Origin: Microcaldota archaeon
Lineage (GTDB): Archaea; Micrarchaeota; Micrarchaeia; Anstonellales; Bilamarchaeaceae
Direction of reading: 5' to 3'
Assembly (NCBI GenBank): GCA_023248035.1
Contig: JAHFFJ010000002.1
Location: 23,448 to 61,864 of the forward strand
DNA: 38,417 nt
Shown here: in pieces, positions 9,064 through 28,968 of the stretch
Layout: the number at the start of each line of letters is the position of its first letter
Numbering within the stretch: position 1 is the stretch's first letter
Notes under the pieces: generated by a model
The model's input: only the letters and a program-made list of their open reading frames with translations
The model's database searches: none
Told to the model about the DNA's origin: nothing
Position numbers and translations under genes: made by a program

Positions 9064-9582
9064 ATGAAAATTAAGCTTACTCCAGAAATTTCCTACCTTA
9101 TTGGCCTCTGGAGGAAGACTCGCTGTTCCGAAGGTCTTGGCGTTAAGGGTGATTCATCCATCTTGAGCGTATTTTCAAAAACCATTCTCGATCTCAATAT
9201 CTCAGTACCAGAAAAGATTCTATCATCGGATGATCGTGTTTATCTCTACCACACCGCATATCGGAAGTTTTTCCAGGAAATCGAACAAGAGCAGCTTGAA
9301 CGTTTTAAATATCTAAATGAATACGCTGCCAGCTACCTTGCAGGGATGTTCGATGGTGCAGGTTCCATCGATGAACGCGGGATAGTCTCAATTGGCCATA
9401 CCTCCAAGCAAGATGATATGATGCTCCTAAGGCTTGGCTTTGTTACTAAACGCAGAGGTTCTGCATTGGTTCTGGATAGACCAGTACTATTTCTTACGTT
9501 CATAAAAAATTATGTAAAAATCTTCAAAGATCATAAAGTCTTTAGCTACATCCGTTCCGATGGCGCATCAAATAAAAGTTAA
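9064..9582 (+). CDS. Degenerate LAGLIDADG-like protein
   Basis: SYLAGMFDGAGSIDERGIVSIGHTSKQDDMMLLRLGF resembles a LAGLIDADG repeat; N-terminal SYLIGLW may be a second degenerate copy. Confidence 0.6.
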   Translation: MKIKLTPEISYLIGLWRKTRCSEGLGVKGDSSILSVFSKTILDLNISVPEKILSSDDRVYLYHTAYRKFFQEIEQEQLERFKYLNEYAASYLAGMFDGAGSIDERGIVSIGHTSKQDDMMLLRLGFVTKRRGSALVLDRPVLFLTFIKNYVKIFKDHKVFSYIRSDGASNKS

Positions 9583-28696: not shown

Positions 28697-28755
28697 TTGT
28701 AATAATTATTTAAATTAAAACGCCTCGGCCGGGATTCGAACCCGGGTCGCAAGAG

Positions 28756-28861
28756 CTCCGTTGCGCTTTTTAGTAAAAAGCGCCCAAAAACTTTCAGTTC
28801 AAAAACCCATTAAGGATTTTACATTTAATGATTTTGGGGCGCCTTTTTTCAAAAGGTGCAA
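28756..28861 (-). other. Intron at tRNA-Asp 37/38 (106 nt)
   Basis: Splice sites within bulges CA^T and AG^C; contains GCACCTTTTGAAAAAAGGCGC, GCGCCCCAAAA...TTTTTGGGCGC and GCGCTTTTTACTAAAAAGCGC. Confidence 0.85.
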
Positions 28862-28884
28862 TGACAGTCTTGTATGCTAACCAT

Positions 28885-28924
28885 TTTATCTTCAGTGCGA
28901 GCCAGAAAGGCGAGCGTACTGAAA
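28885..28924 (-). other. Putative D-loop intron of tRNA-Asp (about 40 nt; exact ends unresolved)
   Basis: Sequence between GTGTAGC and (A)TGGTTAGCAT disrupts the D-loop; ends pair TTCAGT/ACTGAA. Confidence 0.65.
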
Positions 28925-28945
28925 GCTACACTACCGAGGCTTTCT

Positions 28946-28968
28946 AAAATTTTGCAAAGCAAAATTTT
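28946..28968. repeat. Perfect 10-bp inverted repeat upstream of tRNA-Asp
   Basis: AAAATTTTGC-AAA-GCAAAATTTT, 5 bp from the tRNA 5' end. Confidence 0.9.

Follow-up and report, generated by a model that had tools for sequence, protein, structure and literature searches.

BHB introns at both canonical and noncanonical sites, several of them in one tRNA, are known from archaea of the Thermoproteales, from ARMAN-1 and ARMAN-2, and from Atabeyarchaeia and Freyarchaeia (PMC4033280, PMC4090602, PMC11291895). Endonucleases of the epsilon2 type are described as removing introns with a relaxed BHB (PMC6379350, PMC4033280, PMC12397907). Transposition of tRNA introns was described from Thermoproteales in 2010, as cited in PMC4090602, PMC4390854 and PMC3218864. 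The tRNA-Asp(GUC) gene analysed here resembles these systems in having strict and relaxed BHB motifs at 37/38 and at another site of one tRNA gene, in a genome encoding an endonuclease of the broad-specificity type. It differs from them in its 15/16 D-loop site, which is absent from the examples named in PMC4090602, a list that ends in 'etc.', and in the length of introns in this genome, up to 239 nt against the 11-129 nt stated in PMC4090602. Taken alone, the gene is a case of ordinary archaeal tRNA splicing, with one strict and one relaxed BHB; it is also one of many in an intron-rich tRNA set. We are highly confident that it is a functional micrarchaeal tRNA-Asp(GUC) gene and that its transcript contains BHB introns at two places, 15/16 and the canonical 37/38 position, both of them spliced by proteins.

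The tRNA-Asp(GUC) gene and its predicted spliced product

The window, i.e. the whole stretch of 38,417 nucleotides analysed, carries the gene on its minus strand at positions 28721-28940, with the coordinates and strand given by the initial annotation. Its 220 nt, discriminator base included, read from 28940 to 28721 as GCCTCGG TA GTGT AG, a 42-nt intron, TGGTTA GCAT A CAAGA CTGTCA, a 106-nt intron and then CTCTTG CGAC CCGGGTTCGAATCCCGG CCGAGGC G. Exon 1 (GCCTCGGTAGTGTAG, nt 1-15, positions 28926-28940, minus strand) agrees with intronless relatives through GTGTAG. Exon 2 (TGGTTAGCATACAAGACTGTCA, 28862-28883, minus strand), which ends at nt 37, and exon 3 (CTCTTGCGACCCGGGTTCGAATCCCGGCCGAGGCG, 28721-28755, minus strand), which runs from nt 38 to the discriminator, are defined by the spliced product and by BLAST blocks. 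Removal of the 42 and 106 nt leaves a 72-mer that ARAGORN identifies as tRNA-Asp(gtc) and that restores the cloverleaf encoded by intronless relatives. BLAST of the 72-mer against the whole genome gives three consecutive blocks of 100% identity at this locus (1-15, 16-37 and 38-72).

The intact gene is poorly visible to standard tools. ARAGORN called no tRNA anywhere in the window, and the Rfam tRNA model, suggested as a check in the initial annotation, scores it at a sub-threshold 18.4 bits. The two-intron structure is recovered by an unguided search combining all possible BHB introns with a cloverleaf score, in which it stands at the top with a single tie, a solution with both D-loop cuts shifted by 1 nt; this solver was unsuccessful on class II tRNAs and on tRNAs with three introns. 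Only 3 Rfam tRNA matches exceed the threshold in the whole genome, and the introns suggest a reason for which most tRNAs of such genomes escape standard tRNA finders. A palindrome, AAAATTTTGCTTTGCAAAATTTT (window 28943-28965), closely precedes the 5' end of the tRNA-Asp gene, at a place where relatives have a TTTTTAAAA-like promoter element.

The locus could be read as a decayed pseudogene broken by repeats, with another tRNA-Asp serving the cell. Such a copy might be missing because the assembly is about 90% complete, and the D-loop insert does hold a repeated hairpin (see below). A second intact tRNA-Asp, which the initial annotation named as the observation to look for against its claim, was not found by BLAST of the 72-mer in this assembly, where other places gave short partial tRNA matches only. 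The exon stems are all intact in the spliced tRNA, and the only tRNA-Asp found in relatives has the same interruptions. Decay is thus a very improbable account of a gene that we consider functional.

Junctions and BHB geometry of the two introns

The 37/38 intron (106 nt, 28756-28861, minus strand) has a strict BHB, every element of which reproduces the initial annotation: a 4-bp exon-intron central helix CUGU/ACGG (4/4 pairs), two 3-nt bulges, CA^U and AG^C, and the inner helix UGC/GCA. The joint frequency of this arrangement in dinucleotide shuffles is 0.0015. Matches of the 106-nt intron to MIR6224 and MIR821 are far below the Rfam threshold and were taken as chance.

The D-loop intron (42 nt, 28884-28925, minus strand) is inserted between nt 15 and 16, GTGTAG^...^TGGTTAGCAT, with bulges AG^C and AA^U. 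The exon strand of its central helix is the D-stem strand GUGU (G10-U13, nt 10-13; 28928-28931, minus strand), which pairs with the tetramer AUAA near the intron 3' end (28886-28889, minus strand; followed by the bulge AA^U) at three of four positions, the outermost being a G-A mismatch. Owing to this mismatch in a relaxed helix, no clean 4-bp helix had been visible in the initial annotation, which proposed the insertion and left its junction uncertain. The strands UUUCAGU (28918-28924) and ACUGAAG (28890-28896), both on the minus strand, form an inner helix of 7 flush base pairs; it is equalled in 0.0012 of shuffles, and the joint frequency of the D-loop BHB in dinucleotide shuffles is 0.0004. 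The outer helix is weak, almost none. With its 3/4 central pairs the intron departs from a strict BHB, defined by a 4-bp central helix and two 3-nt bulges, and has a relaxed BHB at a register that is consistent among relatives. The minimum-free-energy fold of the precursor did not show the D-loop BHB. Since a shift of both cuts by 1 nt ties when this single sequence is considered, the register is decided by comparison only.

The comparison with relatives lacking the insert, proposed in the initial annotation, is available in six species of the same genus (G008, G009, G015, G016, G002 and G012), where the gene reads GTGTAGTGGT followed by the rest of the D-arm. A D-loop insert is found in the tRNA-Asp of 12 species, nine of the same genus (this one included) and three of other genera. 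These inserts, of 21-45 nt and differing in sequence, all lie between GTGTAG (GTGTAA in G006) and TGGT. In each of the 12 species GUGU forms 3 or 4 of 4 pairs with a tetramer located 3-6 nt from the intron 3' end. A 3-nt bulge separates this pairing from a flush inner helix of 2-7 bp. Summed over the 12 species the proposed register has 40 central and 53 inner pairs, and no slid register reaches both figures. Both junctions of the gene are fixed by orthologues without introns, which, together with the same-site introns of the 12 species, place the D-loop junction at 15/16. All four combinations of the D-loop and 37/38 introns are present within the genus. On the endonuclease tree this takes at least four changes for the D-loop intron and at least three for the 37/38 intron; as the tree is poorly resolved and poorly supported, these are minimum counts without direction. 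In other families of the class, the tRNA-Asp genes L038 (G088) and L044 (G089) have an insert at about 9/10 or 10/11, before TGTAG.

The tRNA-Asp gene is not alone in having such an insertion, which recurs in the tRNA-Asp of these 12 species and in further tRNAs of this genome. Here, 12 tRNAs (Asp, two Lys, Asn, Glu, two Thr, Gly, Pro, two Val and Gln) have an insert that starts right after nt 15. The intron 3' tetramer makes 4/4 pairs with the D-stem strand of its own tRNA in nine of them (GCUC:GAGU, GUCU:GGAC, GUCU:AGAC, GCGC:GCGU, GUCG:UGAC, GUCG:CGAC), 3/4 pairs in Asp and Gly and 2/4 in Thr(CGU). D-loop BHB geometry with a tetramer matching the tRNA's own D-stem was found in 10 of the 11 further tRNAs examined, and the flush inner helix is missing in four of the 12 (Pro, two Val and Gln). 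The 3' register was free to slide by up to 3 nt in this test, so that individual tRNAs are weaker evidence than the whole set. Tetramers that co-vary with the D-stem between tRNAs are the strongest sequence evidence in favour of the D-loop insert being a BHB intron.

These observations bear on the alternative that the 37/38 segment is the sole intron and that the D-loop insert, as an expansion of the tRNA, stays in the mature molecule. The relaxed BHB, with 3/4 central pairs and no clear outer helix, would suit an expansion, but it is hard to reconcile with the existence of intronless orthologues, with a hypervariable insert whose BHB register is conserved across 12 species, with tetramers matched to each tRNA's own D-stem, and with a tRNA-Pro insert at the same site that reaches 239 nt. 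We consider retention in the mature tRNA most unlikely and favour two BHB introns; comparison and geometry uphold the original claim that this is the best explanation of both insertions. At 42 and 106 nt the insertions could not accommodate the catalytic core of a group I or group II intron. Given these lengths, the BHB geometry and the lack of any Rfam match to group I or II introns in the window, self-splicing was dropped as a reading of next to no probability, even if group I introns are known from Micrarchaeota rRNA genes (PMC6125680).

Splicing enzymes encoded by the genome

The genome codes for an epsilon2 endonuclease of 391 aa whose residues 4-391 align with the ARMAN-2 enzyme (PDB 4fz2; E 1.2e-129). 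The full-length likeness to the ARMAN-2 epsilon2 endonuclease (PDB 4fz2, 9w2k) includes the three-unit protomer, the Y/H/K catalytic triad and the ASL Y/K pair: Y235, H250, K281, Y159 and K160 are the equivalents of ARMAN-2 Y236, H251, K282, Y160 and K161, and the equivalent of ARMAN-2 R275 is also kept. A gene for the RtcB ligase is present. Homologues of FEN1 assign the lineage to Micrarchaeota. The system differs from that of ARMAN-2 by a further PF01974 (tRNA_int_endo) protein, of about 165 aa, which occurs in every genome of the genus searched, barring possibly incomplete ones. In the aligned members the positions of the catalytic Tyr and His are occupied by His and Asp, and this paralogue might serve the epsilon2 endonuclease as a structural partner. 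In this genome it is encoded at L094 (contig C5, 1-342).

Cutting and joining, in whichever order the two introns would be removed, may be envisaged as follows. In the folded pre-tRNA the 3' tetramer of each intron would pair with an exon strand, nt 10-13 of the D-stem in one case and CUGU of the anticodon loop in the other, so that a four-position central helix has a 3-nt bulge on each side. In each bulge the epsilon2 endonuclease would cut between the second and third nucleotides, and the exons would then be joined by RtcB to give a tRNA-Asp predicted to read GTGTAGTGGTTAGCAT and CTGTCACTCTTG. The D-loop intron begins with CTTTCAGT (window 28918-28925), a perfect complement of ACTGAAAG in the 37/38 intron, which may be chance.

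A family of related introns in the genome

The apical hairpin of the D-loop intron (GCTCGCCTTTCTGGCTCGCA, 28896-28915, minus strand) is common to other tRNA introns. Its pattern, GCTCGCCTTNNNGGCTCGCA, occurs exactly at five further places of the genome, all tRNA introns by inspection: in tRNA-Arg (T-loop), Glu (37/38), Gln (T-loop), Pro (D-loop) and Val (37/38). The reversed control pattern has no match in the genome at up to 2 mismatches. A weaker copy with 2 mismatches lies on contig C76, outside any recognised tRNA. Together with an intron of tRNA-Leu, these five share 75-91% identity, for the most part along some 200 nt. They make up a family of introns of about 200-240 nt (L123, L125, L126, L127, L128 and L018, on contigs C20, C41, C45, C54, C67 and C62) inserted in the D-loop, the anticodon loop (37/38) and the T-loop of six tRNAs; similar introns at different sites of different tRNAs in one genome are what characterises a transposed tRNA intron family. 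The tRNA-Pro (L127) and tRNA-Val (L128) genes apparently have three introns each.

A second pattern, built on the 5' hairpin of these introns and the start of their long helix, matches the genome at 11 places and the control at none. The pattern is common in the genus and in a single sister genus, but almost missing from the rest of the family. Eight of the 11 matches could be assigned to tRNA genes or to the 23S rRNA gene, and the other three (contigs C9 and C23) have a tRNA-like look. At about position 1501 of L135 (contig C81) a member of the intron family is embedded in sequence that the archaeal 23S rRNA model matches. A kissing interaction AGG/CCU between the loops of the first and last intron hairpins, possible in several introns, was rejected as it is absent from tRNA-Asp and from its G010 orthologue.

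What the tRNA-Asp gene has in common with the other tRNA introns is limited to the apical hairpin and to the initial 20 nt of its 37/38 intron, which are 90% identical to the D-loop intron of a tRNA-Lys. Both tRNA-Asp introns are therefore related to tRNA introns of the same genome. Their gain or remodelling probably took place by copying from one tRNA gene to another, and the shared sequences are most naturally read as a sign that introns are copied among RNA genes. The situation is like the transposition described in Thermoproteales in that similar introns occupy canonical and noncanonical sites of different tRNAs, and unlike it in the Micrarchaeota host, the long multi-hairpin introns and the one member in a 23S rRNA gene. 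A burst of intron transposition in Micrarchaeota appears likely from these sequences. We give an even chance to the more specific hypothesis that a structured BHB intron family is, or was recently, mobile among the RNA genes of the genus, its hairpin modules being copied into the D-loop (15/16), the anticodon loop, the T-loop and 23S rRNA. The tRNA-Asp D-loop intron would then be a small member rebuilt on the shared hairpin, and the epsilon2 endonuclease would render the insertions harmless. The gene and its neighbours suggest that similar tRNA introns arose in a burst, at three positions, in a genus with a broad-specificity epsilon2 endonuclease. Such a burst would be an independent case bearing on the spread of tRNA introns and on the connection that has been proposed between the type of endonuclease and the gain of introns. 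Elsewhere in the window, a 172-aa ORF (9064-9582, plus strand) has a below-threshold match to LAGLIDADG_3 (E 0.011) and possibly codes for a degenerate homing-endonuclease-like protein.
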